DNA from: a virus
Length of the DNA stretch: 59,112 bases
Direction: 5' to 3' (one strand)
IMG/VR virus record: IMGVR_UViG_3300043256_000282
Coordinates: 1 to 59,112 of that record
Below the pieces are notes generated by a model. It was not told where the DNA came from. It saw nothing but the letters and a program-made list of their open reading frames with translations, and searched no databases. Of this stretch, positions 10,851-54,299 are shown piece by piece (within the stretch, counting starts at the first letter, position 1; each line of letters opens with the position of its first letter). The position numbers were made by a program, and so were the translations under genes.

Positions 10851-10913
10851 CTCAGTCGGACAGAGCGCGGTCCCCTAAACCGTAGGTCGCAGGTTCGAAT
10901 CCTGCCGGTGGCG
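10841..10913 (+). tRNA. tRNA-Arg (anticodon CCT)
   Basis: Full cloverleaf: acceptor GCCACCG / CGGTGGC (7 bp), D-stem GCTC / GAGC, anticodon stem GCGGT / ACCGT (one G-T pair), T-arm GCAGG-TTCGAAT-CCTGC, discriminator G. No encoded CCA. The anticodon loop is CCCCTAA, giving anticodon CCT (reads AGG). Two oddities: position 33 is C instead of the near-universal U, and there is no free base between D-stem and anticodon stem. It may still function, or be slightly decayed. Confidence 0.88.
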
Positions 10914-10962
10914 TTTCTGTTTTTTTCTAATTCATGCTCGGGGACGTTACAGAGGGCTGACC

Positions 10963-22008: not shown

Positions 22009-22044
22009 ACCAACCACCACCAACCGAGACGAAAGGTTCACACG

Positions 22045-23310
22045 ATGACGAATGACACGAAAGTCCTTGCCGAACAAAGCAAGGCGGATAAGATCGCGGC
22101 CGACCGCGCGAAGATGGAACAGACAATGACCGACAGTTTGGTCAAGCTGTTGCCGAGACAAGTTGACCCCACCCGATTCACAGCTTTCGCACTCGCGATC
22201 CTGCGCAGTACCGAACTGCGCGATTGCACTGAAAAATCGAAGCTGCTTGCGCTGAGCGATTGTGCCAAGATGGGATTGTTCCCGGATCGCAATCTCGGCC
22301 ACGTCTATCTCATTCCGTTCAACAACAAATCCATAGTAAACGGCAAAACTGAGTGGCACAAAGAAGTCACGGTGATCGCCGGCTATCAAGGCATGATCGA
22401 GTTGGCGCGCCGCTCTGGATTTATCACGACGATCCATACTGGCCTTGTGTGCGAAGGCGACGAGTTCTCCTATTGGACCGACGAGGAAGGCCCGCATCTG
22501 CGCCACGTTCCTACGGATGACCCGGACGATGAAAAGATCGAGAAGGTCTACTGTGTTGCAACGCTCGCGGCTGGCGGCCGGCAAATCGAAGTGATGACGA
22601 TTGCCCAAGTCGAGAAGGTCCGACAATCCTCGAAGACCAAAGACAAAGGCCCGTGGAAAACTGATTATCCCATGATGGTCCGCAAGACGGTCGTTCGCCG
22701 GGCCCGCAAGTATTGGCCGCAGTCTCCCGAGCTTGCTCGACTTGGCGCCCTTGATGATGTGGCCGATGGAATGTACGAGCGCAAACACGTGGACAACATC
22801 GCCGCCGGTGCGCTGGCGAGCGCTCCGACGGGACGGCTCGATACGAAGCCAGAGCCCACGCCGCCGCCGGTTGACGATCAATGGGGGGGCAAGGAACCCC
22901 AGGGCGACGAGCAGACCACGCCGACTGAGCCCAAACCGCAGACCCAACCCGCTGCGAAGACCGAAGAAACCAAAACGAGCGCTCCGACGAAAGAAAAAGC
23001 CCCGGCTGGGTCGAGCGCGGAGCCAGCGACGGCAGAAGCCGACGCTATACCCACCAGCGCCGATGGTCGCCAGCAATGGCTAGCGCGTCTGGCGATGACG
23101 TCGGCGGGCTGGGACGATGAGCAGATGGCCACGGCAATCATACGGCGTTGGCTATTGACCAATCAGGTCGCGCCGAGCCAACTGAACAAGGACGCCATCT
23201 TCAATCCGACCCGAGAGCAGATCGAGAAGATCGACTGGAAGCCGGCGTTCGATGAATGGGCGAGCGAGGCTGAGAAGGCTGCTGCAAAGGAAGGGGCATC
23301 TACCCAATGA
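22045..23310 (+). CDS. recT: RecT-family single-strand annealing protein
   Basis: 421 aa. The core (about residues 30-240) has the RecT order: LPRQVDPTRF ... ALSDCAKMGLFPD ... VTVIAGYQGMIELARRSG ... VCEGDEFSYW ... a Val/Ala strand followed by 'VEKVRQSSK ... PWKTDYPMMVRKTVVRRARKYWP'. RecT coats single strands and anneals complementary DNA. A long Pro/Thr/Lys-rich linker (about 265-345) leads to a helical tail that ends in a charged segment. The tail is unusual in length and may recruit a partner. Follows the nuclease, giving a complete recombination pair. Confidence 0.9.
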   Translation: MTNDTKVLAEQSKADKIAADRAKMEQTMTDSLVKLLPRQVDPTRFTAFALAILRSTELRDCTEKSKLLALSDCAKMGLFPDRNLGHVYLIPFNNKSIVNGKTEWHKEVTVIAGYQGMIELARRSGFITTIHTGLVCEGDEFSYWTDEEGPHLRHVPTDDPDDEKIEKVYCVATLAAGGRQIEVMTIAQVEKVRQSSKTKDKGPWKTDYPMMVRKTVVRRARKYWPQSPELARLGALDDVADGMYERKHVDNIAAGALASAPTGRLDTKPEPTPPPVDDQWGGKEPQGDEQTTPTEPKPQTQPAAKTEETKTSAPTKEKAPAGSSAEPATAEADAIPTSADGRQQWLARLAMTSAGWDDEQMATAIIRRWLLTNQVAPSQLNKDAIFNPTREQIEKIDWKPAFDEWASEAEKAAAKEGASTQ

Positions 23311-28512: not shown

Positions 28513-29838
28513 ATGGCTGACAACACTACACTTCCCGGCACTGGCGATGTATACGCTTCCGATGATCGAGGCGGTGTGAAGTTTCAGAAGGTTGTGGTTG
28601 AGTCGGAACTTGGTAGCCCGTCCGTCGATGCCTTCCATCGGTGGCGCGTTAGCAACCCGACGACATTATTCGATTCCAAGCTGATCAACCTCGATAATGC
28701 GCCCTTGTTCTGGGACGAACAACTTGATTCCGGCACGATGGCGACAACGACTCCGACCGCCGCTAAGCCGTACATCGACTTTACCAGTTCAAATGGAGTG
28801 GCGGGGCAGCGCACCCGTCAAACGTTCCGTCGGTTCAATTACCAACCGGGCAAATCTCAACTTATTCAGATGACCGGGGTCTTAGAACTCGCCAGCGGCG
28901 TGAAGACCGGGTGCGAGAGACGGATCGGCTATTTCGACGACGACAATGGGGCTTTCTTTGAAAGCGATGCTGGCACCATCGGTGTGACGGTACGAACGAA
29001 CGATTCCGGCTCCCCGGTAGATACTACAGTCGCGCAGGCCAATTGGAATCTTGATACTATGGACGGCGGCGATGATTCCGCCAACCCAAGCGGAGATACG
29101 GTCGATTGGACCAAGGCCCAGATTTTCGTCATCGACTTCCAATGGTTATCTGTCGGACGTGTAAGATTCGGTGTCGAACTCGGCGGGCATCTGCATTATG
29201 TCCATGAGGTCGTGCAAGCAAATACCGCTGCGATTCCGTGGGCCTCTACACCCAACTTGCCGCTACGTTACCAGATCATTGCAACAACGGATTCTGGTGT
29301 ATGCTCCATGCGCTGTATTTGCGCGGCGGTCACTTCCGAGGGAGGCACGGACGACATCGGCATAGTCCGGTATCGTTCAACAGCAGGGGCCGGGGTCACT
29401 ACCGACGCAGAAAATTCGCTTTTTGCCGTTGTTGGTATCAGACTTAAATCAACTCATATCGGCACAACCATCAAGATGCTCACGGCGGCGATTCAGGTGC
29501 ACACGGCGAACGAGTTTCTGGAATGGGTTCTGCTGTTCAACGCCACCGTGGCGGGCACGTTCACCTATGGCGATCTCACGAACAGTGCTATGCAGACGGC
29601 TCTTGGGGCTACGGCGAATACGGTAACGGGCGGCACCGAGATCGGGGGTGGATACGTCGAGACGGGTGGTGGGCAAAGCGCGCAGGGGTCAGGTGGTGGC
29701 GATTTGGATAATGCCTTGATGCTCGGTGTTGCTATTGACGGAACCACTTTGGATACCATTGTTCTGGCTGTGCGTCCAATCGGCGGTGTGTCGGCGGCGA
29801 TTGTGGAGGGGTCATTAACTTGGCGTGAGATCAGTTAA
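28513..29838 (+). CDS. Virion-associated beta-rich protein
   Basis: 441 aa. Strongly beta-rich. A SPSVDAFHRWRVSNPTTLFDSK region followed by PLFWDEQ and 'RQTFRRFNYQPGKSQLIQMTGVL' resembles large phage structural proteins of unknown name found next to tail fibre genes. A Gly-rich loop (GGGYVETGGGQSAQGSGGG, about residues 377-395) precedes the last domain. Fibre, baseplate or decoration role likely. Confidence 0.65.
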   Translation: MADNTTLPGTGDVYASDDRGGVKFQKVVVESELGSPSVDAFHRWRVSNPTTLFDSKLINLDNAPLFWDEQLDSGTMATTTPTAAKPYIDFTSSNGVAGQRTRQTFRRFNYQPGKSQLIQMTGVLELASGVKTGCERRIGYFDDDNGAFFESDAGTIGVTVRTNDSGSPVDTTVAQANWNLDTMDGGDDSANPSGDTVDWTKAQIFVIDFQWLSVGRVRFGVELGGHLHYVHEVVQANTAAIPWASTPNLPLRYQIIATTDSGVCSMRCICAAVTSEGGTDDIGIVRYRSTAGAGVTTDAENSLFAVVGIRLKSTHIGTTIKMLTAAIQVHTANEFLEWVLLFNATVAGTFTYGDLTNSAMQTALGATANTVTGGTEIGGGYVETGGGQSAQGSGGGDLDNALMLGVAIDGTTLDTIVLAVRPIGGVSAAIVEGSLTWREIS

Positions 29839-37529: not shown

Positions 37530-38045
37530 ATGTCTCTCGAAACGCTTCAACCTGACGCAATTGGTCCTATCGATCAATGGACATTGGGGGCTGGCTCTAA
37601 GAAGCAGGTCGCGGTGCAGTTGCCGGATGATGATGATACGACTTATATTTCCGAGATGGTTGCGGGGCAAATTCAGGAATTTGAGGTTGACAATCCAAGC
37701 GATATCCTTTTCGCCGACACTATTTCGAGCGTCACCTTGCATTATCGGGCTCGGTTTGTCGCAGGGACTGCTGAGAGAGTGATCCCAGGATTGCGGGTTG
37801 GAGGCGGGACGCTAGACGAAGGCGCATCGCAGATTCTTACCGGATCGTATGTGAACTATAGCGATACCTTTGCGCTGAATCCGGATAGCGCCAACTGGTC
37901 GCTGGCAGACCTGAACAGTCTGAGAATTCGTGTGCGGTATGTCTCAGGGACAGCTCAGATCAGAGTGACGACGTTGCGGGCGGAGGTCCAATACACTCGC
38001 GCGAGCAAAAAATCCCAACACACCATGATGCTAGGAGTTGGATAA
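37530..38045 (+). CDS. Hypothetical beta-rich protein
   Basis: 171 aa, very strong ribosome site (GAGGTGAGG). Beta-rich (SVTLHYRARFV, RIRVRYVSGTAQIRVTTLRAEVQY), consistent with a structural protein such as a decoration or fibre component. No family is recognised. The gene is the first after a terminator, so a promoter should lie near 37510. Confidence 0.6.
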   Translation: MSLETLQPDAIGPIDQWTLGAGSKKQVAVQLPDDDDTTYISEMVAGQIQEFEVDNPSDILFADTISSVTLHYRARFVAGTAERVIPGLRVGGGTLDEGASQILTGSYVNYSDTFALNPDSANWSLADLNSLRIRVRYVSGTAQIRVTTLRAEVQYTRASKKSQHTMMLGVG

Positions 38046-38046
38046 G

Positions 38047-38424
38047 ATGGCGTACAATCAACCACTTCGAGGGTTCCCTTATGTGGTGATCCCATTCGAT
38101 ATCAGCCCGTCGACCGCAGGCGATACGGAGATCAAAGCAGTCGTCGCCAACAAGCATCTAGTTGTTGCGGGATTGCTGTTGGTCACGCATGGGGATGTTG
38201 TGGCCGCCTTTTATTCGGAGGATTCAAGCACGGGGGGCAATAGCATCAGCGGCGCCTTGACGGGCACACAGATTCACGGTGTTGTCGAGCGTGATCTTGA
38301 GTATGGACTCTTCTGGACCAAGAAGGGCGAAGCGCTGATCCTCAATCTCGATGCCAATGTCCGTTGCAGTGGCCGTGTACTGGTCGTCGAAGCTAACGAC
38401 ATGCCCCCAATTGTCGAGATATAA
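38047..38424 (+). CDS. Hypothetical beta-rich protein
   Basis: 125 aa, AGGAG upstream. Beta-rich, of the small-virion-protein type (IKAVVANKHLVVAGLLLVTHGD, 'AFYSEDSSTGG', LNLDANVRCSGRVLVVEA). Similar proteins are encoded near fibre and sugar-modification genes in other environmental phages. Confidence 0.6.
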   Translation: MAYNQPLRGFPYVVIPFDISPSTAGDTEIKAVVANKHLVVAGLLLVTHGDVVAAFYSEDSSTGGNSISGALTGTQIHGVVERDLEYGLFWTKKGEALILNLDANVRCSGRVLVVEANDMPPIVEI

Positions 38425-38438
38425 CGAATAGGTAACGC

Positions 38439-39068
38439 ATGACGACGTGGCTCGTATTAGGTTCGTCTGTTTCCGCACCCGCAGAGTATGAACGCGCTAA
38501 GCCGTTCGCCGATGTTATCATCACGTCGAACCGAGGCTTGAAGATCGAACCGAACCCCGATTGGTATTGGGTCAGTGACCACGTGGCCGTTGATCGTTAT
38601 TTGCCTTTGATCGAACCATCGCTCGGTAACAAGACGAAGCTCGTGACAAATGACTTCGCAGTCCGAACGAGGCCACAACTCAAGCCGCTAGCGGACGTGA
38701 TTCTCAATTATGACTACAAATACAACTGCAACTGGCATCCCGGTCGCTACGTGAATGCACGCGCTTCGGGGGGCATGATTTTACAATTTGCTGCAAACCA
38801 CGATGCCGATCGTATCTTGATGGTTGGGATGAGCGGATATAGATCGAGACCAGGCCACATCGAAGTCGAATACTTTGATGGGGAGTTAGGAGTGATCAAA
38901 TGTCAAGGGCTGATGAAAACCTATGGTCCGTTGGTCCAGAACGTCATTGACCGATCGTCCGGAATCACGTTCTTCTTCTTTGGGAAACCCAGTTATCCGT
39001 GGCGTGGAATGTCTATAATTGAAACGCAATCAACCGACACCTTGAAATCACCCAATGTCGCAGTTTAG
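38439..39068 (+). CDS. MptE/DUF115-like protein (sugar operon gene 1)
   Basis: 209 aa. The opening WLVLGSSVSAPAEYERAKPFADVIITSNRGL, then PDWYWVSDHVAVDRY and later DRILMVGMSGY are typical of the MptE/DUF115 fold (Rossmann-like, seen in sialyltransferase-like and pterin-kinase-like proteins), in which a VLG-S-P loop binds a nucleotide. A nucleotide-sugar transferase or related binding role fits the operon. The second copy lies at 41874. Confidence 0.6.
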   Translation: MTTWLVLGSSVSAPAEYERAKPFADVIITSNRGLKIEPNPDWYWVSDHVAVDRYLPLIEPSLGNKTKLVTNDFAVRTRPQLKPLADVILNYDYKYNCNWHPGRYVNARASGGMILQFAANHDADRILMVGMSGYRSRPGHIEVEYFDGELGVIKCQGLMKTYGPLVQNVIDRSSGITFFFFGKPSYPWRGMSIIETQSTDTLKSPNVAV

Positions 39069-40134
39069 AGAAGCGCGAATTCGTGTCAAAGACTTCCAGG
39101 CTCGGCAAGAGGTATCTAGCCGTCCATTGAGTTTGCTCATTGAGATTTCGGCTCGCTGCCCCCAGCGTTGCCCCATGTGTCCGTTGCAAGGTTCCGACAT
39201 GAGACTCGCGCGAACCGAAGGACTCATGGACGTGCTCTTATTCGAGCGGATTATCGATGAACTGGCCGCAAATCCTCCCGAAGTAGTATGCCTGCATTCG
39301 AGCGGCGAAAGCACCGTCCATCCACAGTTTACGGAAATGGGTTCTTACGCTCGGCGCAAGTTACCTAAGACCTGGCTTCGAATGAACAGTGGTGGAATCA
39401 CCTGGAACACTGACGAGAAGCGAACGAAGTGGCTCAAGATCGGCCTGGATCGACTGATATTTTCGATCGAGGCATGCCGCTGGTTGCAAGATGGTCTTGA
39501 TCGTGATGGCAAGCCGTACGATGTAAAGACCCATCGCGCGGATGTCAAGGACGACTATCAGCGGTACACGATTCACCCGTACCGCGCCGGGGCGCCATGG
39601 AAGATCGTTGTCCCCAACATCATCGCGACAGCAAGGATACTCCGACGACTGAAAAAAGACTCCCCAAAGGGCGACCCGGTACATCGGGTCAATCTAGGAA
39701 TTCAGCACATGGTCACGGTCGAGCAAGCGCTGATCCCAATCAGGGCGGCCCGTGCCAACACGTCGGCCATCTCAACGTGGGAGATCGAATTCTCGCGAGC
39801 CTTCTGGAAGCAGCATGGCGTTGAAGTTGGTCAGGTGGCTGTCGCATCGGTTGGCGGTCAAGTTGACAACAGCCCAATGATGAACCTGGAATTCAAGCGC
39901 AAGCCGATGGGCATATGCCGCGAGGTCTACACCAACTTGATGATCGCTTACGATGGGTGCGTAGCGCCGTGCTGCGTCGATGCCCATGAATTGGAATTGC
40001 TGCCCGAGATCAATCTAAAAAAGATGACGATCAAAGAGGCGTGGACGCATCCAAGCGTGGTGAAACTGCGGGCGCAACATCGATCTGGCCGAGGCTATCC
40101 CGAGAAGTGCAAACGCTGCCTGGCCTCAATATGA
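39055..40134 (+). CDS. Radical SAM/SPASM enzyme (sugar operon gene 2)
   Basis: 359 aa. The 4Fe-4S/SAM motif is C35-x3-C39-x2-C42 (CPQRCPMC) followed by a short glycine-poor 'HSSGEST' segment (the GGE-type motif, here SGES at about 83-86). A second cysteine set (C288, C302, C306, C307 with C352 and C355) matches a SPASM/twitch domain for auxiliary Fe-S clusters. Such enzymes do radical chemistry on sugars, peptides or nucleotides. Here, with a NeuA/NeuD pair, a sugar substrate is most likely. It overlaps its neighbours by 14 and 4 bases. Confidence 0.88.
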   Translation: MSQFREARIRVKDFQARQEVSSRPLSLLIEISARCPQRCPMCPLQGSDMRLARTEGLMDVLLFERIIDELAANPPEVVCLHSSGESTVHPQFTEMGSYARRKLPKTWLRMNSGGITWNTDEKRTKWLKIGLDRLIFSIEACRWLQDGLDRDGKPYDVKTHRADVKDDYQRYTIHPYRAGAPWKIVVPNIIATARILRRLKKDSPKGDPVHRVNLGIQHMVTVEQALIPIRAARANTSAISTWEIEFSRAFWKQHGVEVGQVAVASVGGQVDNSPMMNLEFKRKPMGICREVYTNLMIAYDGCVAPCCVDAHELELLPEINLKKMTIKEAWTHPSVVKLRAQHRSGRGYPEKCKRCLASI

Positions 40135-40853
40135 TGCTACCGATGCAAGACACTCTTGAAAAACAGCGCCAAGCGATAGCAGGTCTTGGACCGCCCGTCA
40201 GCAAATCAATCTTCATTTACGGTGCGGGGGGGTTTGCGCGTGAGCTTCGATGGTTGTTGGAGAATTCAGCGCAGCCAGGCTGCATCCATGAGTTCGCTGG
40301 ATTCATTGACGACCGTATGACCGCTGAGCGGGCGAACAAGCGGCAGATTGGCGCTGCATCTTGCACCCTGGCTTCTGCTTATTCCCATCAATCAGCGAAG
40401 GATTACTTTTGCGTATGCGGTATCGGCGATCCCGAGAATCGCCAACGCGCGATGTGGCGCGCCATGGATGCTGGATTTCGTTCGTTGTGTGTGATCCACA
40501 ACCGCGCGGAAATCGGGCCGGGCGTGATGTTCGGCGATGGCGCGATCGTCTGTGCCGGAAATATCATCACGGTCGATGTGAAAATCGGCAAGCACGTCTT
40601 ATTGAACCTCGATTGCACGGTCGGGCATGATGTGCGGATCGGAGACTACTCGGTTATTTGCCCTGGCGTCCATATCTCCGGTTGCGTCGAGATCGGCCAG
40701 AAGGTATTCATTGGGACTGGAGCGAACATCATCCACGGAACTGCCAAAGAACCGCTGACCATCGGCGATGGCGCGGTGATTGGTGCCGGCGCATGCGTTA
40801 CAAAGAGCGTGCCCGCACACACAAGAGCGCTGGGAGTGCCCGCACGATGGTAA
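40131..40853 (+). CDS. NeuD/PglD-like sugar acyltransferase (sugar operon gene 3)
   Basis: 240 aa from ATG 40131 (ATGATG overlap). An N-terminal Rossmann-like domain (IFIYGAGGFARELRWLL, then FAGFIDD) and a C-terminal left-handed beta-helix of hexapeptide repeats (about 125-240: IGPGVMFGDGAIVCAGNIITVD, VKIGKHVLLNLDCTVGHDVRIGDYSVICPGV). This is the two-domain plan of NeuD/PglD acetyltransferases, which acylate sialic acid or UDP-4-amino-sugars. The conserved His of the LDCTVGHD region is present. Confidence 0.85.
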   Translation: MMLPMQDTLEKQRQAIAGLGPPVSKSIFIYGAGGFARELRWLLENSAQPGCIHEFAGFIDDRMTAERANKRQIGAASCTLASAYSHQSAKDYFCVCGIGDPENRQRAMWRAMDAGFRSLCVIHNRAEIGPGVMFGDGAIVCAGNIITVDVKIGKHVLLNLDCTVGHDVRIGDYSVICPGVHISGCVEIGQKVFIGTGANIIHGTAKEPLTIGDGAVIGAGACVTKSVPAHTRALGVPARW

Positions 40854-41890
40854 TGATCGAGGCTCTTGCCGTGATCATCGGCCGTGCCGGAAGTAAGGGA
40901 TTGCCCGGCAAGAACACGGCGCTTGTCGCAGGTGAGCAGATGATCTGCCACACGATTAGGCACGCGAAGGCGGCTCAGGCTGTTACGCGCATCATCGTCT
41001 CGACCGATGACGAGGGTATCGCGTTCGCCGCGCGGGCAATGGACATCAAGGTGATCGAGCGACCGGCCGAGTTGGCAACCGATACCGCCTCAGTCGGTGC
41101 TGCCGTTCATCATGCGGTGCAGACTATCAAGGCCACAGAGTCGATTGTTGTGATTCTGTACGCGAACGTGCCGGTACGACCGCCGGACCTGATAGATAGT
41201 GCCGTTCGGATGCTTCGGCAGACCGGCGCGGACAGTGTGCAGTCATACGTCGAGGTTGGGAAACAGCACCCGGATTGGGCGTGTCGTCTCGACCACGAGC
41301 AGCGCGTCGAGGCGTACACCACGAGCACACCCGACCGTCGCCAGGACCTTGAGCCGTTGTTCATCCCCGATGGCGGCGTGCTCGCGGTCACGGCTGAGAG
41401 TCTACGCAAGGCAAGCGATGACGCCCCGCACACTTTCCTCGGCACTGACCGGCGGGGCATCAAGACAGAGGCGGGCCAGGTCGTTGACGTTGACAGCGCG
41501 GCCGATCTCGCTGTCGCTGAGGCACACCTGATCGCACAAGGCGATCATTCCGGCGAGCGGCGCACGATCGCAGTAGTGACGGGCGATCGCGCAGAGTTCG
41601 GTGTACTGCGGAGCGTGATGCGAGCGATCCACCAGCACCCTCAGCTTGATCTTGTGATCCACGCCACGGGTCGTATGCTTGACGATCAGCACATGGACGA
41701 ACTGATGGAGTTCGTGTTCGACTTGACCGACAAATATGGGGGTACGATTCCCGTTGAGTTTGTTCCAATGTGGAATGAGCATGAAGCCAAAGCTGGCACG
41801 GTTTATGTGACCGCAGAGGAGACCGCCGATGGCAAGGCGGCGTCTCGCGGCGTTATGATTGCTTCAACGCGATATGTCAAGCAGCAATGA
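40853..41890 (+). CDS. NeuA-type cytidylyltransferase fused to a truncated NeuC-like segment (sugar operon gene 4)
   Basis: 345 aa from the ATG at 40853 (TAATG overlap); an ATG at 40847 is in frame. Residues about 1-230 are a CMP-acylneuraminate/Kdo cytidylyltransferase: VIIGRAGSKGLPGKN (the nucleotide loop), RIIVSTDDEGIA, and later GGVLAVT and GQVVDVDSAADLAVAEAHL. Residues about 237-265, RRTIAVVTGDRAEFGVLRSVMRAI, are the start of a UDP-GlcNAc 2-epimerase (NeuC). The epimerase is then cut short: the final ~80 residues do not follow that family. The NeuC part therefore cannot be active, but may serve for binding. Confidence 0.85.
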   Translation: MIEALAVIIGRAGSKGLPGKNTALVAGEQMICHTIRHAKAAQAVTRIIVSTDDEGIAFAARAMDIKVIERPAELATDTASVGAAVHHAVQTIKATESIVVILYANVPVRPPDLIDSAVRMLRQTGADSVQSYVEVGKQHPDWACRLDHEQRVEAYTTSTPDRRQDLEPLFIPDGGVLAVTAESLRKASDDAPHTFLGTDRRGIKTEAGQVVDVDSAADLAVAEAHLIAQGDHSGERRTIAVVTGDRAEFGVLRSVMRAIHQHPQLDLVIHATGRMLDDQHMDELMEFVFDLTDKYGGTIPVEFVPMWNEHEAKAGTVYVTAEETADGKAASRGVMIASTRYVKQQ

Positions 41891-42677
41891 ACAAGGTACA
41901 AAGGCGCCGGAAAAGGAACAAATAGATGGCACTTCACCACGGGAAAAAAATCAAACGTGGCCACAAGAAGGTCAAAGCGAAGGGTGCGGCCGGTCCCAAG
42001 AAAGCCAAATCGAGGCGACGCCCCCGGCGCTGACCACAATCGTCCTCGCCTGTGGTGGCCCGTCGTTGTGCAACGTCGATTGGTCTGCGCTCCCATTCCA
42101 GGTTGCCGCCATCAACAAGGCCATTTGGGTAGCGCCGCGATTCGACTATTGGTTTATCGCCGACGGATACCCTGAGAAGGTCTACAAGGATCGCTGGCGT
42201 CCGATCGCGGTGAACCCCAGGATCGCCAAGTGTGTCCCGCATCATCGGCTTGCCACGGGCTATGTGAAGCTCAAACGGGTCGCACGTAATCTTCACGCCG
42301 CCCCAATGTCTCAAGGTCGGACGCAAGACAAGACGATGGCCAGTCGTGGCCGGCAGCTTTTGGACGGGCGCACGCCGTTTTTCTATGTCGAGAACAAGAC
42401 AACGCTCTTCGCGACCCAATGGCTGTCCGTCGGATACGAACGACTGATCTATGTCGGATGCGAACTGACCTTCAAAGGCAATTTGGGCAGTTGTGTGGGA
42501 AGCGGGATGGGCGGCGGCGAGGTCAATCAGATGCGCAAAAACCTCGAACTGGTGAAACGTGGTCTACAAGCCCTGCACGTTGCCGCTGTGAAGCGCGGAA
42601 TCCAAATGCTCTCATTCAGCCCTGGCCCGATCAACGACATCATGCCGAGGTATGAACCATGCCCGCCCTGCACGTGA
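41874..42677 (+). CDS. MptE/DUF115-like protein (sugar operon gene 5)
   Basis: 267 aa from ATG 41874, which has no ribosome site; a CTG at 42030 is a possible later start. From about residue 55 the sequence follows the MptE/DUF115 fold: TTIVLACGGPSLCNVDW, VAAINKAIWVAPRFDYWFIADG, YERLIYVGCELTF. It is longer than the first copy and ends in a Cys-containing tail. The first ~50 residues overlap another frame that encodes a basic 35-aa peptide, and may be non-functional. Confidence 0.65.
   Translation: MSSSNEQGTKAPEKEQIDGTSPREKNQTWPQEGQSEGCGRSQESQIEATPPALTTIVLACGGPSLCNVDWSALPFQVAAINKAIWVAPRFDYWFIADGYPEKVYKDRWRPIAVNPRIAKCVPHHRLATGYVKLKRVARNLHAAPMSQGRTQDKTMASRGRQLLDGRTPFFYVENKTTLFATQWLSVGYERLIYVGCELTFKGNLGSCVGSGMGGGEVNQMRKNLELVKRGLQALHVAAVKRGIQMLSFSPGPINDIMPRYEPCPPCT
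41926..42033 (+). CDS. Overlapping 35-aa Lys/Arg-rich peptide
   Basis: MALHHGKKIKRGHKKVKAK..., 35 codons with AAAGGAAC eight bases upstream, ending in CGC-TGA where the CTG overlaps a possible start for the MptE-like gene. Nearly half the residues are Lys or Arg. Either a true small nucleic-acid-binding peptide that couples translation of the next gene, or a chance frame. Confidence 0.4.
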   Translation: MALHHGKKIKRGHKKVKAKGAAGPKKAKSRRRPRR

Positions 42678-43484: not shown

Positions 43485-43676
43485 ATGGGCATCTTTCAAA
43501 CGCCTACATTCCAACGTGCGGTAGAGATCAGCAAGAAAGAGGGACGCCTTACCGGCAGTGCGCTGGGACAAGCATTCCGGGAACGCAAGGAATTCCAAGA
43601 GCAGCGGTCGTTCCGCGCGTTCACAAGGCGGATTGATCGGCGCGCGACACAGCGCACTTCGGCTTTGCGAAGCTAA
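43485..43676 (+). CDS. Small basic virion-type protein
   Basis: 63 aa, SD GGAGG. Basic and helical (KKEGRLTGSALGQAFRERKEFQEQRSFRAF). Same MGIF opening as the preceding gene, so the two may be related. Its stop overlaps the portal start (TAATG). Confidence 0.65.
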   Translation: MGIFQTPTFQRAVEISKKEGRLTGSALGQAFRERKEFQEQRSFRAFTRRIDRRATQRTSALRS

Positions 43677-45286
43677 TGAAACTCCAAGACCTATACCAAC
43701 GTCTGACGAACGAGACCGGCATCACCGAGGGCGCCGATGGCAGCGACGAACCCCGTGCAAGCCAGGGTCGCAAGAAGTTCCTCGACCGCGCCGAGGAAAT
43801 CGCCAAGCTCACGATCCCGTCGATCGAGCCTCGCGGACTTCCGTTGACCGATGTTGCCTACAGCCATGACGGCGCCCAGGCGATTCGGGGGTTGTCATCG
43901 TCGATCCGCAGAGTCTTGATGCCGCCCAATCGCACGTGGTTCAAGCGCCAACTCACGACAAAGGTGCAACAGGAGGTAGAGAGGGCCGTGGCCGGCGCCA
44001 GGGGCGACGTTGAGGCTCAGCTTGCGCAGATCAACTTGCTAATTCGTAACGAGATGGTTCAAGGCGAAAAACAGATCAATGCCTATCTGCATCGTCGCAA
44101 GGTCAAGGCGCGGATCGCCCGAGCAATCACGCGGAATCTGATCGAAGGCTTCAATGTGATCCGTGTCTTGACGGATCAGATCAACGTCTTCCCGCTTCGA
44201 CTCATCACTGCTTACCGACAGCACGGGGAATTGAAGTTCTATATATTGAAGGAAGAAAAGCCGATCGACGTCAGATCGTTTGGCGACGACAGCAAAGTCG
44301 TTCCAGGCTCAATCTATACGCTGATCGACGTCGTGAACAAGGAAGTGTGGCAATCTCAAAACGATGGCCAGGCCGAAAAAGTCGATCCCATGGTTGATGG
44401 TGGAGACTGGCGCCAGTACGTCGCTTTCAACTCTGAAATGCCGGACACCGAGCATTATCCGGATTCGTTCGGCTACACCTTCCTCACATTGTTCAATGAG
44501 ATCGACGCGCTGGTGATGGACCTTGGGGAAGCGGCGGCCAATGCGGCGTGGGCCGTGTTGGGCATCAGTCCGGAATCTTCACTAACGACTACCGAGGTGA
44601 CCAAGTGGAGGTCGGGTCAGGTATACAAATTCTCGCCGGAGCAACTTGCCTGGCTCAGTTCCGCGACCAAACTTACCGACTTTGGGATCGTCAACAAGAG
44701 ACTCGAAACTCTACAAGCGGAACGGCGCAAAGTGTTCGGTGCCGGCGTTCGTGAGCGCTCGCCGGGGGACGTGACGGCGACGCAAATCCTCCAGGAAGTC
44801 GAAGAACTCGACGAGCAAACGGCCGATCTGCTGGTCAACTACGACGAGACCTTGCTTGTGCCGCTGGCTACCGCCGTGGGTGTTGTGGAAAGGATCGACA
44901 CGATCGAGATTCCAGGCATCGGCTCGCCGATCGAAACGATCGTCACCACTGGCAATTCCGCACTCCAGCGACAGATATCGATCATGCGTATGTTGCAGGC
45001 GATGAACATCATTCAGGGGCTTGCCCCGGACCTGTTCAACCGAAGAGCAACCTTCAAATTGACCGCTGAGATCGAGGGATTCGACGAATACGTAGACGAT
45101 GTTCTTCAAGCGGAAGTCCCCCCCGAGCCGATTGAACCTACCGACGAGACGAGCCGAGCCGAGCAGCCTGCCCCCGAAGTCGCCGGATCGATCAAACAGA
45201 CCGCCGGCGGCCCGCAACCGCAAGTGCAAGGCGAAATCCAGCGGCAACAAAATACCGGCCGTCTCGTCTCAACATCGGTGGCTTGA
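43676..45286 (+). CDS. Portal (head-tail connector), T7 gp8-like
   Basis: 536 aa. The dodecameric ring at one head vertex, through which DNA passes. Matches the T7-type connector family (Head-tail connector): the opening 'LYQRLTNE...KFLDRAEEIAKLTIPS', RGLSSSIRRVLMPPNRTWFK, ARAITRNLIEGFNVIR, and the region with VFGAGVRERSPGDVTATQILQEVEELDE. The C-terminal ~60 residues are Pro/Glu-rich and disordered. Length is typical (T7: 536 aa). Confidence 0.93.
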   Translation: MKLQDLYQRLTNETGITEGADGSDEPRASQGRKKFLDRAEEIAKLTIPSIEPRGLPLTDVAYSHDGAQAIRGLSSSIRRVLMPPNRTWFKRQLTTKVQQEVERAVAGARGDVEAQLAQINLLIRNEMVQGEKQINAYLHRRKVKARIARAITRNLIEGFNVIRVLTDQINVFPLRLITAYRQHGELKFYILKEEKPIDVRSFGDDSKVVPGSIYTLIDVVNKEVWQSQNDGQAEKVDPMVDGGDWRQYVAFNSEMPDTEHYPDSFGYTFLTLFNEIDALVMDLGEAAANAAWAVLGISPESSLTTTEVTKWRSGQVYKFSPEQLAWLSSATKLTDFGIVNKRLETLQAERRKVFGAGVRERSPGDVTATQILQEVEELDEQTADLLVNYDETLLVPLATAVGVVERIDTIEIPGIGSPIETIVTTGNSALQRQISIMRMLQAMNIIQGLAPDLFNRRATFKLTAEIEGFDEYVDDVLQAEVPPEPIEPTDETSRAEQPAPEVAGSIKQTAGGPQPQVQGEIQRQQNTGRLVSTSVA

Positions 45287-45302
45287 TGAAAGGACGTGAC
45301 CC

Positions 45303-45881
45303 ATGCCAGACGAAGAAGTTGATCTGACCGTTGATCCGGGCGCCCCCGATCCCGATGCGGAGCCCGGCGAGAATGAGCCGGACGAACACGGCGAATCAAT
45401 CCACCCGGCCGACGGGATTGGGACACCGATCGAGCCGCCTCAGCCGTCCAACCTCGAAACACGTGTCAAGACCCCGGCCGATGCGGAGCCCCCGCCTCCT
45501 GTGCCGGATGCCCTGACCCATCCGGAGCCGTTGCCGGAACCGCCGAAGCCGCCCAGCATTGCCGAGTTGACGGAAGAAGCCACGATCCCGGTCCATGAAT
45601 GCCACCTTCCGTTGCGATTCATTCAGAATGCTGCGGTTATGAGGGACTACGTGAACAAGAACGAGCATCGGCTCAACAAGCCACGGCGCAAGCTCGATGT
45701 ATCGAAAGCCCCAATCAAAGCTGGCTATCCGATCTTCGCCAAAGCCATGCAGGCGCACGGCCACTATCCATTGACCGAGCATTGGTATGCAGCCGCGTTG
45801 ATCCTGGTCACGATGGGCGTACCGATCGACGAAGAGCCAAAGGCTGACACGGATGCGATCTTGGACCAGTTGGCGCAGTAG
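45303..45881 (+). CDS. Hypothetical acidic Pro-rich protein between portal and scaffold
   Basis: 192 aa, SD AAGGA. The first ~105 residues are acidic and Pro-rich, hence disordered. The rest (about 110-192) is helical (RFIQNAAVMRDYVNKNEHRLN, YPIFAKAMQAHGHYPL). It may be a virion or assembly protein. Confidence 0.65.
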   Translation: MPDEEVDLTVDPGAPDPDAEPGENEPDEHGESIHPADGIGTPIEPPQPSNLETRVKTPADAEPPPPVPDALTHPEPLPEPPKPPSIAELTEEATIPVHECHLPLRFIQNAAVMRDYVNKNEHRLNKPRRKLDVSKAPIKAGYPIFAKAMQAHGHYPLTEHWYAAALILVTMGVPIDEEPKADTDAILDQLAQ

Positions 45882-45918
45882 CACTGAGACAACAGCGATT
45901 TTCTAAGCGAGACGAGCA

Positions 45919-46923
45919 ATGGCAAAGCAGGGTGAGGCTACTAAACAGGTTCCCGGCGAGGAAATGGAGGCCGCCGGCGAGGTCGATTTGAGCGCTGGCG
46001 CTCCGGAAATCTTTGGCGACCGAATCGTAGCTGGCGACACGCCGCAGCCGAAACCGGGTGCCGAAGATGTGGGCGACATAGGAGCGGGGGGCCTACAGGA
46101 CGGTCCGGAAGGTCTGGGAGAACCAGTCGGTTTCATGCAGAGCAAATGGCCCGACGACGCCGTCCTACCGGAAGAATTCAAAAAGTACGATACGCCGGCA
46201 AAACTCATCGAGGCGCACGTAAACGCGGTCAAAAAGATCGGCGAGCGCAGCGATGAAATGCAGCAACTTCGAACTGACAACAAGGCGCTGCGCGAAGGCA
46301 AGGTCACGGAAGAAATTCAGGCGCTGGCCGAGCGCGCTCAGATCGAGGTCGGCGAAGGTGGTCTCAAGCGCGACACGATCGATGCCTATGCGCAAGCTAC
46401 CCACCTGCCCCCGCCGCTGATCGCGGCGCTCGGCCAGATGATGGCTGAGCGAACAAACCAGTTCCTCGACACCGCGGCAAAGGCGCTTGGCAGTGCAGAG
46501 AAAGTGCAGAAGTTTTTGGATGAAATGCAACAAGGAAGATTCACCCAAGGCGAGTTGGACACCTACAACGGCTGGGCGACGCTCGGAAAGGTCTCTTGGA
46601 TCGCTGAAGTTGCTTCGCAGCTTGGGTTTGAAGTCGATGAGGCCGCGCTCAAGCCGGCGGCGGCCGAGCGGCTCGACGAATCGGTCAGCCCGGCCGAGCC
46701 TAGCCCTGGCCTCAATCGGGCGGTGCAACAGGTCGTCGTTGGGGAAACACCTGGGCCGCCACCGGGTCCAGACATCTTCACGAGTCGTGCTGAATATCTC
46801 ACGGCTCAGAGCGTCGCGGACGCGCATTACAACGACTCGGGCGATTCGTCACAGCAAGAAGCTGTCCGCGCCAAGCTCCACCGATCCCCCACCCAGCAGT
46901 GGGGATCACAAGTTGGGGGTTGA
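45919..46923 (+). CDS. Scaffolding protein, T7 gp9-like
   Basis: 334 aa. Acidic and helical. A PEEFKKYDTPAKLIEAHVNAVKKIGERSDEMQQLR segment (about 85-120) is the common scaffold motif (PxxFK.Y..PaaLi.ay..l.k...). Helical coiled regions follow, and the C-terminus has a conserved TSRAEYLTAQSVADAHYN. It sits between portal and capsid, as in T7, where gp9 guides procapsid assembly and then leaves. Confidence 0.85.
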   Translation: MAKQGEATKQVPGEEMEAAGEVDLSAGAPEIFGDRIVAGDTPQPKPGAEDVGDIGAGGLQDGPEGLGEPVGFMQSKWPDDAVLPEEFKKYDTPAKLIEAHVNAVKKIGERSDEMQQLRTDNKALREGKVTEEIQALAERAQIEVGEGGLKRDTIDAYAQATHLPPPLIAALGQMMAERTNQFLDTAAKALGSAEKVQKFLDEMQQGRFTQGELDTYNGWATLGKVSWIAEVASQLGFEVDEAALKPAAAERLDESVSPAEPSPGLNRAVQQVVVGETPGPPPGPDIFTSRAEYLTAQSVADAHYNDSGDSSQQEAVRAKLHRSPTQQWGSQVGG

Positions 46924-47106
46924 CTCGGGCAACGACCGATGATTCAATGAGCTAAGTTCCGTCCCCTACCAGCCCTTCGGCCCGCACGTTGCGGACACCC
47001 GGCTAGGACACCTGGGCGGAAGAATCAAACCACGGCCCCCGCCATTGGGGACACCCGTGCGAGATTCGGGACAAAGTGTTTCGATTCTAGCACGGAGTAA
47101 AAACCA
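46924..47106. other. Intergenic region before the capsid gene
   Basis: No gene seen. ACGCCGG- and GGGACA-type short repeats, and CGGGACAAAGTG... TTCTAGCACGGAGT directly before the capsid, which contains the ribosome site GGAG. A strong capsid promoter would be expected here, but no clear consensus was found. Confidence 0.3.
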
Positions 47107-48015
47107 ATGGCCGTGATCAAGACTGCTGCCGAGGTTGAAGAATTCATCGGCAAGGTGTGGCAAGCCTACTCGATCGGCAAAGCGTTCTTCCCGCAGATGG
47201 CGGATTTCCATGCCGCCTCCAAGGGTGAAGTCAAGAACGTGCCCCAGGTCGAGCGCCAGGATGCCGTAAACAAAGCTGACGGCACAAGCCACGCTGACAC
47301 AGCTGAAGCACTGACCGCAGTGGAAGTTCCCCTAGAGCTTCCCATGAAGCGATGGGTCTGGATCAACAAGGACGATTACGACGTCCGACCCGACCTTGCG
47401 CTGTTCACCAACTTTTCTACCGGAATGGGCATGGACCTCGTTGAAGGCGAGAACCGCCGTTGCGCTTTGACGTTGATGAAGTTTGCCGACACCAACACCC
47501 GCGAAGTCAACGCGGACTTCACGACCAGCGGATTCGGCACTCGATTCGCGACTGAGCTTCGCGCTTCGGCGGCGCAATTTGACGAGGACGGTGTACCCGA
47601 TGACGGGAACCGTTGGCTCTGGGTGAAGCCGCTGATTTTCTATGCCCTACGTGCCGTAGAAGGAGTCATCCGACTCGACTTCGGCGGCCAAGCCGACGTC
47701 AGGCGGCCACGTTCGATCCTCGAATACGTGGGCTGGAAGATTATGAGGCTGCCCGGAGTGTTTGGGAACGACTTCACCGGCACCCCGTTTGCCGCCCTGA
47801 ATCTGCCAACACACCAAAGTTTCGACGCCAGCAAAGCGGTCGCGATCGCTGCGCACAGTTCGGCTTGGGTGTGGCGACAGGTCAAGGGCATGGAGCGGCT
47901 TGGACCGGACTGGTGGACGGATCGAGACCAGTGGAAGATCGAGGCGCGAATCCATCACGGCATTCGCGCTCGGAACGAATTTGGTCTCTGGCTGTTCACT
48001 GACAACACGACTTGA
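47107..48015 (+). CDS. Major capsid protein, T7 gp10-like
   Basis: 302 aa, GGAG upstream. Located between scaffold and tail tube genes. It follows the T7-type HK97-fold capsid plan: a helical start (FIGKVWQAYSIGKAFFPQM), 'KNVPQVERQDAVNK' and a central KRWVWINKDDYDVRPDLALFTNFSTGMG segment, then a C-terminal 'WVWRQVKGMERLGPDWWTDRDQWKIEARIHHGI' strand-rich end. Shorter than T7 gp10A, so insertions are small. Confidence 0.9.
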   Translation: MAVIKTAAEVEEFIGKVWQAYSIGKAFFPQMADFHAASKGEVKNVPQVERQDAVNKADGTSHADTAEALTAVEVPLELPMKRWVWINKDDYDVRPDLALFTNFSTGMGMDLVEGENRRCALTLMKFADTNTREVNADFTTSGFGTRFATELRASAAQFDEDGVPDDGNRWLWVKPLIFYALRAVEGVIRLDFGGQADVRRPRSILEYVGWKIMRLPGVFGNDFTGTPFAALNLPTHQSFDASKAVAIAAHSSAWVWRQVKGMERLGPDWWTDRDQWKIEARIHHGIRARNEFGLWLFTDNTT

Positions 48016-48036
48016 TCGGTTCGTCTCGGTTGGTCG

Positions 48037-48642
48037 GTGTCGATCGCCCTGGTCGGCACCGGCCAGTCATTTGCCATGAATCTTCTTACCGCCATCAACT
48101 TTGTGCTTCGCGGCTCAGGTTTGGACCCGAGCAGTGATCCGACCGATGAGAATCCCGAGGCTGGGCTGGCGATCGAAGTCATTACCCGCACGCGCCGCGA
48201 GATTCTTGAAAGCGGTTTCCCCTTCAATACCCGCAAGATCACATTGCAAGTGGCGCAAAATGGTCGTGTCCCAATTTCGTCGGCCTATCTCGATCTGGAA
48301 TTGCCCAAAGGATTCACTACGCGGGTCGATGAGACGGATGGCGAACGATACGTATGGGATATCGAGAACGACGATTGGCATGATGAGGCCCTAGAGAGAA
48401 TCCCGATCATCCATGACATCGCGGACCTCGCGCAAATTCCCGAAGCTTTTGGACGATGGATCGCGCGCCAATCAGCCGTCAACTTTTTCACTGAACACAC
48501 TGGCAGCAAATTTTCAGTTCCCAAGACGCTCACGGACCAGCGCAATGAGGCGCGGGCAAAGGCAGAGAATACCCAACCGGCCGGCAGCATTCGAACCGCA
48601 ACCCGATGGGCTTCAAGGCTTCGGCGCCGTGTGAGGACATGA
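48037..48642 (+). CDS. Tail tubular protein A, T7 gp11-like
   Basis: 201 aa from GTG 48037; the family start (LLTAINFVL) favours the ATG at 48076 (188 aa). The 'AINFVLRGSG ... EVITRTRREILESGFPFNTR' and 'FGRWIARQSAVNFFTEHTGS' segments are typical of gp11, the ring below the portal. No clear ribosome site for either start. Confidence 0.87.
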   Translation: MSIALVGTGQSFAMNLLTAINFVLRGSGLDPSSDPTDENPEAGLAIEVITRTRREILESGFPFNTRKITLQVAQNGRVPISSAYLDLELPKGFTTRVDETDGERYVWDIENDDWHDEALERIPIIHDIADLAQIPEAFGRWIARQSAVNFFTEHTGSKFSVPKTLTDQRNEARAKAENTQPAGSIRTATRWASRLRRRVRT

Positions 48643-48643
48643 A

Positions 48644-50742
48644 GTGCCCGACCTCAAAACAGATCGCTTGTGGCAAGGCGTTTCGTCCCAACCGCCGTGG
48701 CTGAGATTGCCGGGGCAAGTCAAGTCGGCCCTGAATCTTCGCCACGACGTATCGCTCAGTGGCGCGGCCAAGCGGGCGGCTACGCTCTACAAAGCCGACC
48801 TATCCGAGCTTACGCCGTCGAAGGACTACATATTCGTCCCCTTGCGCGATGCGATCATCGCCATCGGCGAAGATGAGGTCTTTGCATGGGATACCAATGG
48901 CGTTGCGTTGACGGTCGACGATGATTCGCCGACGCCGCCGTTCAATGAATACCTCCGTCTGCGATCGCCCGCCACCGGCGAGACGTTCGATCCGTTCCTG
49001 CACCTTGACTTCTGTTCATCGCAGGACACGTTGGTCATCGTGAATCGAACGATCAATACGGCAATCAACATCGGTTGGACGTTCCAGCAAATCGACAACT
49101 TCCTTTTGAACGGTGATATCACTGTCGAAACTCATCCGATCGATGACAGCGGCCCCGCTGTAGATACATTCAGTGATCTCCCTAATTCCCCTAGTGACGG
49201 CGATATCGTCAGGGTGAGATTTGACGAAGACCTTGATCCGCACGGCTACTACTTGAGAGAGACAGGAACCCCACATGACGACGGCGTATTGATCTATCCT
49301 GAACACGGCTCCAATTGGTTCCGAATTCCCAAGGCGAGCCAAAGCCGCGCACGGATGGACAATGATGATATGCCTCAGCGCATTCTGCGCGAGGATGATA
49401 CGACGCTCAGCTTCAATCGCATCGTGTGGTCACAACGGCTCAACGGGAACCCCGGATCAAACCCCCCCATGCCGTGGCGGAATAAGCCGTTGCAGGCTTG
49501 CAGCTTTCAGCATGGTCGCTTGTTCCTGTGGAGCAAGTTTCATACGACCGCTTCGCGCACGAATGATCCGTTTGACTTTTGGGACAACAACGCGGGTACG
49601 CCCGTCGATTCAGACCCGATCGCCCAGGACATAAACGACGCCAACATCGGCAACGTCTTGAGAGTGGGAATATGCGGCGAGAACGTGTTGATCAACTGCG
49701 AAAACGGCCAGGTTCAATACGGCTCCGGCGTTGACGTGCTGACCAAAACCAACGGTCGGCATTTCCGGGTCAAATCGCTCAAGCCGGAAGATATCCCATT
49801 CGGCGTGAGTGATGAGCGATTATCGATGATCGACAGATCGGGGCATGTTCATCAATTCTTGTGGGCTGGCGCCGACGCCGGCGGTATACGGTACGCCGGC
49901 TGGATGAATTCCCATGCCCAGTTCATGTTTCGCGGCAAGACGCCCCTGCGCTTGTTCTCGATGCCGAATCAGAGTTTCTACACGACCGTCGATGATCGAA
50001 CGATCCTACACGACCATTTCATCTTGGCGGCCGATCAGATTCAATCAGCATGGGGGGAGTTGGAATTCCAGGGCGACGCGGTGTTCTTCAACGAATGGCA
50101 CGATTTGATCCGGATCATCACCCACGACGCAACTGGCTACAGCTTGGTTCATCACGTGCATCGCGATCCCGATCCGGTCGGGGCCCTGGAATTTGAACCG
50201 CACAGCGATCGACAGGAACAGGTCTCGGGTACTTACGATGCTGTGCTGGATCAGACCAAGTTCACGCACACCGGCCGGAGCGGTGATCTGCTATCGAGCA
50301 TCCTCACACTCGCCACAGATGTTGCCGACGTCGGGCGCGATCACCAGTTCCTTGAGCCGGTAGACGTAGACACCGCCGGCAAAGTGAGCTTCCAGGGCAA
50401 CATCACCGGAGCGCACTGGCTTGGGTTCCGGTACACGACTCAGATCGAAACATCGAAACTCTTCCTGGGAATCCACGGCCAGGATTCGAAAGTCAAAATC
50501 TTTACGGTGTTCCACTATCTCTCGTCGGGTTACGAGGCATTGGTGAACGATCGGGAAGGAAACGTCCGAAGAACAGATGCTTCGACCCTGCGAGATACCG
50601 ACGTGATCAATACTTTCTTCAAACGATTCAGCGGCTTGCCGCATGATGCCAAGCGCGAAAGTGTAGCGCTCCGCAGCACGTCGCCGGGCCCATTGATCTG
50701 GACGATGATAAACTTCGACGTGGACGTCGAGGGTAATCCGTA

Positions 50743-50743
<1 letters not shown>
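48644..50743 (+). CDS. Tail tubular protein B, T7 gp12-like nozzle
   Basis: 699 aa, GTG start two bases after the previous stop. The first lines (LWQGVSSQPPWLRLPGQVKSALNLRHDVSLSGAAKR) are the gp12 family opening (nlxqGvsqQpp..RlpGQ...N...d...GL.kR). The long beta-rich body builds the tail nozzle. The lengthened central region (about 180-240) is acidic. Stop overlaps the next start. Confidence 0.9.
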
Positions 50744-51512
<769 letters not shown>

Positions 51513-51513
<1 letters not shown>

Positions 51514-54299
51514 TGGCTCGACGCATCCAATCTCAAATCATTCCCCAGCCGGCGGTAACACCAATAGCGCCGGTCCCGCCGTCGATAGGACTTGCCGATA
51601 TTGGGGCGTTGATCGAGAGCATTTCGCGCACAGGCACGGCGGCGGCGCGGGCCCAAGGCCGGGAATTCCAGCAGGAGCGACAGGTCGGGGCCATCGAAAG
51701 ACAAGCGCAGGCGGCCGAGGATCGCTTCGAGGTTGCTCAGATTGATCAGGAGCGGTTGGAATTGCAGATCGAGGCGAATCAAAATCGGATGTTGACGGCA
51801 GAAGCGAAGGTAGAGATCGCACGACTCACCAAGTTGGAGTTTCTAGGTTTCCGGGCTCTTGTGGATGAAACGCCAGTTGACGAATTGCCGGCGTTGTACG
51901 CGGAATTTCCACTTGCCGACCCCGGCAATCAGGATGCGTTCGCACGGCTCATTGGCGCACGTGCCGCAACGGCCGACGAAACCAATCTGTTGACACGGCT
52001 GGGCGAGTCATTGAGCGCACAACAAAAGGGCGCAGCGGGCATCGAAGGACCACCACTGCCGACAACGCAGAACATAACCGACGTCTTGCTCGATCTCAAA
52101 GAAGAGCGAGCGTTTGACGATCCTCTAATCGCTGCCGTCTATGAGCAGCAGTTGACGTCAGTGGCGTACAGTTGGCGGAAAAATGTTGAGTTGGGGAAGC
52201 AGAAGGTTCAATCTCAGGAATTGGCCAACACCGCCATTGAGGAAAACCGCAATCTCCTGTATCGCGGGCTCGAAGAAATGTTCGCCGGAGATCGTGAGCC
52301 AGCAGACATGCGCGCATTGATCGACGGCAACTTCCCGGTCGTGAGCGCCGCGATCCCGTCGATGGATAAGACGGAGTATCTTGATAATTTTGTGCAGGTC
52401 TTGGACGATTGGGCTAAGTCGGCGCCGGACCTAGAGCGTTCCCTTGCGGTCGTGTCCGAAGTCTACAACTTGGGGGAACAGTATCAGCGTCGGGTCCGCG
52501 GCTTGAAATCCGATCTAACAGACGCGGTGAAGCGGCAAGCTATCACGCGCGAATCGACCAGGGTTAGAAACCTCGTCGATGTTGCCGAACTGGAAATCCG
52601 TGAATTGGGGACAGAAGGATCGCAATCGCTCGGGCGCCTGACAGCTTTCCGCAAAGACATTCCGGGGTTTGATTTATCCGACATCGAAATCGCCAAGTTG
52701 ACCAGCCGTGCCGACAAAGAGATCGCACAGTTGGCTCGCAGCCTTGGCGAACAAGTCGAACTGGACCTCATCTTTGCAGGCGAGTCAAGAGGCATCGTCA
52801 GCGCAAGCGCTATGGCTACTCGATGGAAGAATATGCCAGGAATATCAGCATCAGCCAAGCTGGTAAAGTTTGCATCACACGGCCAACTCATTCCGCGCGT
52901 CGCCGCCACGCACGTCGAGGATTTGCTAAATCAGGCTCCAGGCGAGGCCGCAAGCATTATGCACACCTTGGAAAACGTGAGCCGAAACGCCGCCGGTTCG
53001 CTGATAGCGCAAACACGTATACCGGAAAGATTGCGGGCGCTGGTCAACTCAACGCGCGGGCTCGCTGAGGACGATCCAATCTACAAACAGATCATCGACG
53101 GGTTTGCGGCACCGGGGGCGTTGGCCAGATATTTCCAAGCTATGCAACAGCTTGGTGGCGAGTTACCGATCATGTTCGACGAGGAAGGGAAACAGGTCAT
53201 TATTCAAGTTAGTGACTCCAAATTCCCACAGGACGATCTTATCAAACGATTCCTTTTGTCGCCGAATATGCAGATTGATCCATCGGTGATGGAAGATTAC
53301 AACGCTAACTTCATTGCCGGCTGGACCATCGTTGGCGACGATGTAACATTTGCGGGCGCCCATCCACAACAGCAAATTGAATTCGCTCGCACCTTTGCGA
53401 CAAACGCTATTGAGCGCCGATACGTTGGCATGGAGCAACGGGATGGGACGCGCAGATTGGTTCGCCGCGATCTGCTCGGCAACCCAACTGACGATCAAGT
53501 ATCAGCGATCACTCAACGTATGATGTTGGCGTTGCAAGATCGGGAACTTGAATTCGGCATAGAGTTGTCAATCGCTTGGGACGCGATTCAACCCACCGGC
53601 GAAACCTCACTGATTCCGATTGGGGGCATCGCGATAACAGAGGATTCCGAAGGCCCGCAGTTTGTCGAATTCATCGAGCTTGATCATGCCACAGGTCTAA
53701 CGCGAACGATCAACGCCGTCACCGATCCGGGCGGCTTCGATGAAGCGCGTCTGCTATTTGGTGACGCCTCGAAGCGCCTCGACCCGACCGTTCGATTGAA
53801 CTGGACGCCCGATCAAGGCTCAGCCGTCGCTGTTCTGAACCCGAATTTCATGGCAGTGATCGGCCCCGACATGATCCGGGAAGGCAAGAAAGCGTGGTTC
53901 GAGCTTGTCGGCGGTCGGATCAACGTGCGATCCGGCGACTTTGGCACGTTCATGGACAACTTCCTCGCAACACACAACTGGCAGGGCGCATTCCCTCGGC
54001 CGTTGTTGATGCAGAACGTATCATCTGAATCGCTCACAGGCATCACACTCGGCGCTGGCATTGTCGGAGGTGCCACGCGAAGGAACGTGCTGCTCGCCGG
54101 GGGTGTTCCTGATTTGCGGATCGGTAATCAGTTGGCCAATGCGCCGACACCGCAACAGTTTGATGTTGAACCGGGAACTGATATCTCGCTCATTCCAGCG
54201 GCCATGCAGGCCATTTTCGAATTCGCCAATGGCGACGCGGACCTTGCTGACAAGATAGCCAGGGACGTAGGCTGGTTCGTTCCGGAGATTGAGGATTGA
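51513..54299 (+). CDS. Internal virion protein, gp15-like
   Basis: 928 aa, TAATG overlap. Long, helical and charged (EFQQERQVGAIERQAQAAEDRFEVAQIDQERLELQIEANQNRML), without membrane segments. In T7, gp15 follows gp14 and forms part of the tube through which DNA crosses the envelope. Order, size and composition fit; T7 gp15 is 747 aa. The assignment is mainly by position. Confidence 0.75.

Follow-up and report, generated by a model that had tools for sequence, protein, structure and literature searches.

Can a phage that is equipped to activate and attach a sialic-acid-like sugar, but not to make one, still put such a sugar to use? This question is raised by positions 38439-42677 of the IMG/VR virus record IMGVR_UViG_3300043256_000282, which was obtained from environmental DNA and analyzed over its full 59112 bases (hereafter the window). 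Five intact open reading frames (ORFs), genes A to E, are tightly packed there on the + strand between virion-type genes of a podovirus. The initial annotation had described five adjacent, mostly overlapping genes in a virion-type setting, including a radical SAM/SPASM enzyme, a NeuD/PglD acyltransferase and a NeuA-type cytidylyltransferase with a NeuC fragment, and had pointed out that NeuB is missing and that the host must contribute, unless another chemistry is used. All of this holds, the host contribution as a supported inference. The same annotation regarded the genes as a kit for both making and activating a sugar, of which the activating part stands and the making part does not: there is no synthase, and of the 2-epimerase just an N-terminal scrap remains, so that the genes are better read as an activate-and-transfer module. 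Since this module seems capable of activating and attaching the sugar but not of making it, it probably borrows from the host. Our preferred reading, held with about even confidence, takes the cassette for a glycosylation module of the phage that activates and transfers a host-made nonulosonate, with tailoring by C and B and probably a virion protein as acceptor.

Activation would be the task of gene D, whose N-terminal domain is, judged by its sequence family, a cytidylyltransferase of the type that forms cytidine monophosphate (CMP) nonulosonates. It matches CTP_transf_3 (PF02348) at 1.6e-18 and 67.7 bits (cut-off 22.6) and keeps the SKGLPGKN motif for binding cytidine triphosphate (residue 14) as well as the VDVD/DxD metal site (residue 211). 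The closest solved relatives are synthetases of CMP-N-acetylneuraminic acid (CMP-Neu5Ac), with NeuA 1eyr at 6e-19. The best NCBIfam model is PseF (TIGR03584; 1.8e-25, 89.9 bits), but this score lies under the curated cut-off of 205.7 and thus indicates the same family without assigning the exact sugar. Further along the protein, residues 238-279 match positions 2-43 of the 365 in the NeuC model TIGR03568, and positions 2-50 of 5xvs. What is present is therefore the tip of a 2-epimerase rather than a full-length NeuC or equivalent, the remainder being missing as gene E follows. A frameshifted yet complete NeuC was rejected: E begins 17 nt before the end of D, which leaves no room. The scrap suggests that the module is the reduced form of a larger one in which early steps of synthesis were still encoded. 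Scanning IMG/VR with D as a single protein gave short matches only, and its sole tblastn match among INPHARED genomes was a Moritella capsule contig, not a phage. This Moritella viscosa contig (FPLJ01000048.1, L013) carries a capsule and sialic acid cluster and no phage genes, and was probably misfiled in the phage collection.

For the transfer step the candidate is gene A (209 aa). Alone it gave no Pfam match, PF01973 included. Homologues were collected by scanning IMG/VR with an alignment of A, followed by an iterative profile search, which yielded 37 A-like stretches. PF01973 (MptE-like) was matched by 8 of the 18 family members tested, and a profile of 18 members matches the sialyltransferase CstII (1ro7) with an E-value of 5e-6 over nearly its whole length. 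An AlphaFold2 model of A built with 18 sequences reached a predicted local distance difference test score (pLDDT) of 82.5 and a predicted template modelling score of 0.84. When this model was searched with Foldseek, the best solved structure was the Maf glycosyltransferase 5mu5 from Magnetospirillum (E 7e-5, probability 1.00), followed by MptE 8sd5 (3e-3, probability 1.00). In addition, PHROG 4603, named 'alpha-2,3-sialyltransferase', matches the A homologue in contig L088 at 5e-22. From the predicted model A is a protein of the Maf/MptE/GT42 fold, and it is a probable CMP-sugar-using transferase.

The genomic company of A in other phages points in the same direction. An IMG/VR scan with an alignment of D produced 80 viral contigs with NeuA, two of which gave A homologues: directly after NeuA in L038 and fused to it in L056. 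When the A alignment alone was used for the scan, four loci came up (L117, L056, L119 and L118, the last being the contig also listed as L038), and NeuA was adjacent or fused in all four, the fusions being those of L056 and L117. The L117 fusion lies downstream of portal, protease and capsid genes, as read from their translations, and the L119 pair downstream of a head-tail connector (phrog_442); the pair of L038 is likewise found within a head/tail module. In a set of distinct loci, 16 of the 25 A-like genes are located at most 100 bp from NeuA; random placement within these loci would give 0.7, and 2000 such trials never gave more than 5. This linkage is not due to phage ancestry shared with the window, since none of the window's virion proteins has a clear homologue there. 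The NeuA genes of L038, L056, L117 and L119 group together in a single clade (support 0.955) and D branches elsewhere in the tree, although with support too poor to place it. If its placement holds, the pairing of NeuA with a transferase arose more than once. These pairs differ from the window in having no radical SAM or NeuD gene in the stretches examined, and the head genes of L117 are HK97-type, not podoviral.

Other parts of the cassette recur too. A radical SAM gene adjoins NeuA in L015, L050, L108 and L110, and more weakly in L060; L108 and L110 also carry NeuD and NeuB, and L108 additionally a NeuC-type epimerase. The complete cassettes of L108, L110 and L015 thus share NeuA and radical SAM (and, for the first two, NeuD) near phage genes with the window, but contain NeuB, are ordered differently and stand among unrelated virion proteins. 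Overall, the recurring subsets are A with NeuA, radical SAM with NeuA, and NeuD with radical SAM, NeuA and NeuB. The exact order A-radical SAM-NeuD-NeuA-E, for which a search in other phages had been proposed with the initial annotation, was not found elsewhere in IMG/VR or the INPHARED phages. Single-protein scans of IMG/VR with A, B, E and the portal gave no close relatives, and tblastn of A, B and E against the INPHARED phages no match. A search of genome contigs with B gave one distant radical SAM gene from Saprospirales, in a neighbourhood free of sugar genes.

NeuB is absent from the whole record in a PF03102 search that was positive on control genomes. Among viral contigs this is a minority type, as 41 of the 50 carrying NeuA encode NeuB too; the nine others are L019, L021, L027, L038, L040, L042, L049, L054 and L056. 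The short contigs L117 and L119 show no NeuB in the stretch examined. Viral records may be fragments, so that absence of NeuB is not proof in any single one, but the contigs with the closest A homologues consistently have NeuA and a transferase with no synthase seen. Some phage contigs with NeuA and without NeuB share a family of about 240-300 aa (L021:2107-2817, L027:7878-8783, L040:7950-8777 and L019:12111-12941), which has no Pfam match in the one member tested and a weak local profile similarity to A. In six related viral contigs (L028, L029, L032, L033, L035 and L052) NeuB is short, about 235 aa ending in TGA, compared to most NeuB frames. Recoding of this TGA was considered and set aside: it looks like an ordinary stop ending a short NeuB.

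Genes B and C are assigned by sequence family. B is a radical SAM/SPASM enzyme, exceeding the Pfam cut-offs for both Radical_SAM (PF04055, 32.5 bits) and SPASM (PF13186, 35.9 bits), with CxxxCxxC at residues 35/39/42 and C-terminal cysteines at 288-355. C is a NeuD/PglD-type acyltransferase: it scores 178 bits with TIGR03570 (NeuD_NnaD; NeuD/PglD/VioB) against a curated cut-off of 160.8, contains Hexapep repeats according to Pfam, and aligns with 4m9c and VioB 7txp, having His162 at the 'GHD' position. Gene E is less clear. It has no Pfam or phage match, and neither the IMG/VR scan nor tblastn against INPHARED gave homologues. Against the A-family hidden Markov model (HMM) it ranks second among the window's proteins (E 0.003; next protein 2.5), and hhalign aligns its residues 56-116, which span the GGPSL...N...D segment, to the A family with a probability of 42%. 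A single-sequence AlphaFold2 model was unusable (pLDDT 34). These signals are suggestive of a second Maf/MptE-like protein. Two MptE/DUF115-like proteins had been annotated initially; through its homologues and its fold in the structure search A fits that description, E does so weakly through the HMM and hhalign signals, and neither matches Pfam directly.

The layout of the cassette and its surroundings is given in Table 1. All junctions from A to E overlap, with B-C as the sole possible exception depending on the start codon of C: starting at 40131 gives an ATGA overlap, starting at 40143 none. A and B overlap by 14 nt, D and E by 17 nt, and C and D by TAATG, with the stop of C at 40853. G+C content at third codon positions (GC3) is not far off that of the core genes. 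Beyond the portal follow major capsid, tail and internal virion proteins, and the record also holds a terminase. No flippase, lipid-linked glycosyltransferase or polymerase was seen beside the cassette genes in the ORF list and Pfam results, and PADLOC gave zero matches to defence families.

Table 1. Positions of the cassette genes, the parts of gene D and the flanking genes in the window
Feature	Positions	Strand	Assignment
Upstream virion-type gene (171 aa)	37530..38045	+	phrog_6368 (9.1e-11) and phrog_2448, both phage families of unknown function
Small gene immediately 5' of A (128 aa; ATG at 38047)	38038..38424	+	ORF; weak PHROG match (0.038)
Gene A	38439..39068	+	Maf/MptE/GT42-like fold protein, predicted CMP-sugar transferase
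Gene B	39055..40134	+	Radical SAM/SPASM enzyme; putative tailoring role
Gene C	40131..40853	+	NeuD/PglD-type hexapeptide acyltransferase; alternative start 40143
Gene D	40853..41890	+	Cytidylyltransferase, NeuC scrap and unmatched C-terminal end
D, N-terminal domain	40853..41542	+	CMP-nonulosonate-type cytidylyltransferase
D, residues 237-285	41561..41707	+	N-terminal scrap of NeuC (UDP-N-acetylglucosamine 2-epimerase), about 49 residues
D, C-terminal 60 residues	41708..41890	+	No match found
Gene E	41874..42677	+	Possible second Maf/MptE-like protein (weak evidence)
Portal (head-tail connector), podovirus/T7-type	43676..45286	+	PF12236; phrog_449 (9.4e-26)

Some further features of the record were observed. 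The terminase large subunit (4006-5613) is about 38 kb upstream of the portal/capsid region (43676-54299), and a long frame (about 54296-59110) reaches the end of the record, which may therefore be permuted or cut. A virion structural protein at 28513-29838 has relatives (phrog_1645; 31-37% identity) mostly in Synechococcus myophages, which is unusual in a podovirus. A phage recombination pair, consisting of an exonuclease and a RecT-like annealing protein, is located at 20686-23310, and a tRNA-Arg (CCT) gene at 10840-10914.

How would the module work? The families of B, C and D, the fold of A, the absence of NeuB from the record and the A-NeuA linkage were computed; from these we infer the substrate, direction, acceptor, tailoring roles and host supply. 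D would couple a free, host-made nonulosonic acid (a nine-carbon, sialic-acid-like sugar) to CMP. A, with its small size and Maf/CstII/MptE fold, would then act as the transferase and move the sugar from CMP to its acceptor in the cytoplasm, perhaps with E as a second transferase. C and B would tailor the sugar by acylation and radical SAM chemistry, respectively, although B possibly acts on the acceptor instead. A virion protein is the most likely acceptor, a choice made from the position of the module within the late structural region; by the same token the 128-aa protein just before A may be a candidate. In bacteria, Maf enzymes transfer CMP-nonulosonates to protein in the cytoplasm, before export (PMC4065374, PMC11339370), a role like that predicted for A, and one of them accepts both Neu5Ac and 3-deoxy-D-manno-oct-2-ulosonic acid (Kdo) as donors (PMC11339370). 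There are also differences: the solved Maf chain has 632 residues where A has 209, and the phage has no flagellin.

Several points weigh against this reading. The activities of A and D are predicted from sequence and fold, and a fold alone does not fix chemistry, given that the second fold match of A, MptE, is a pterin pyrophosphokinase. By sequence alone, A and its four closest homologues matched no PDB chain, and the iterative A family is broad and may have drifted. Identity to CstI/CstII is very low, and in our reading of the alignment the catalytic His of CstII appears to be without a clear counterpart in A. The small proteins encoded ahead of the module in other phages show no homology to the 128-aa protein. 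In most cases NeuD relatives work ahead of the synthase, which makes NeuD and radical SAM hard to place without NeuB. Finally, if the record is incomplete, NeuB could lie on missing sequence.

Four other explanations were considered. An unlikely one, though by no means negligible, is that the module acts on the host surface (lipopolysaccharide, capsule or exopolysaccharide) and not on the virion, for instance as a block to superinfection. CstII and its GT42 relatives sialylate lipooligosaccharide, so the CstII match of the A family can be read in this way, and bacterial NeuA relatives sit in capsule or lipopolysaccharide clusters. Yet the best fold match of A is the protein-modifying Maf, the machinery for lipid-linked export or polymerization is not found beside the cassette, and expression from a late structural region would probably come when surface changes are less useful. 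Another, very improbable one has D using Kdo instead of a nonulosonic acid, with A transferring the sugar from the CMP-Kdo that results. As Kdo is found in all Gram-negative hosts, the lack of a synthase would be accounted for; the matches of D include KdsB (NCBIfam model 1.8e-13, 50.2 bits; solved KdsB 1.6e-6), and the donor range of the one Maf enzyme mentioned above includes Kdo. PseF and NeuA are nonetheless far ahead of KdsB by both bits and structure matches, the NeuC scrap and adjoining NeuD point to nonulosonates, and hosts already have KdsB.

The NeuC scrap, the missing NeuB and the failure to find the exact gene set elsewhere could also mark a decaying acquisition with no current role. 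We judge this quite improbable: the five frames are intact, their catalytic motifs are preserved and their stops and starts overlap tightly, GC3 is not far off that of core genes, and NeuB-less pairs of NeuA and A recur in other phages. The fourth explanation takes A and E for kinases of the MptE type, or for unrelated enzymes with nothing but the fold in common, and the cassette for a set of unrelated auxiliary genes. MptE as the second Foldseek match of A, and E being without a solid match, speak for it, but the association of A-like genes with NeuA greatly exceeds chance, two contigs even having both fused, and we find this idea scarcely credible.

The proposed glycosylation module with a host-made nonulosonate can be compared to what is known. 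Bacterial legionaminic/pseudaminic acid clusters, such as that of Sulfitobacter W027 (L010), similarly group NeuA with NeuD-type genes, but have LegB, LegC, NeuC and NeuB. Viral neuA and neuB were already listed in the gene table of a virome study (PMC3877843), and PHROGs already names a phage sialyltransferase family. A NeuB-less NeuA with a compact Maf/CstII-like transferase, fused to it in some cases, and the additional radical SAM and NeuD genes of the window were not found in the literature searched, which covered few subscription papers.

A broader proposal can be made tentatively, although we think it somewhat more likely wrong than right: unrelated tailed phages would independently keep a minimal, synthase-less set of NeuA and a compact Maf/CstII-like transferase, separate or fused, by which virions are coated with host-made sialic-acid-like sugars, and the podovirus would add acyl and radical SAM tailoring to obtain a variant sugar. 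If true, phages without a nonulosonate synthase could dress their virions in host sugar by means of two genes or one fused gene. This would make protein nonulosonylation outside flagella accessible in a small system open to testing, supply compact glycosyltransferases that might serve glyco-engineering, and predict the hosts such phages require, namely nonulosonate makers. It would also provide a likely function for phage 'MptE-like' proteins that are now annotated as pterin kinases or left unnamed.

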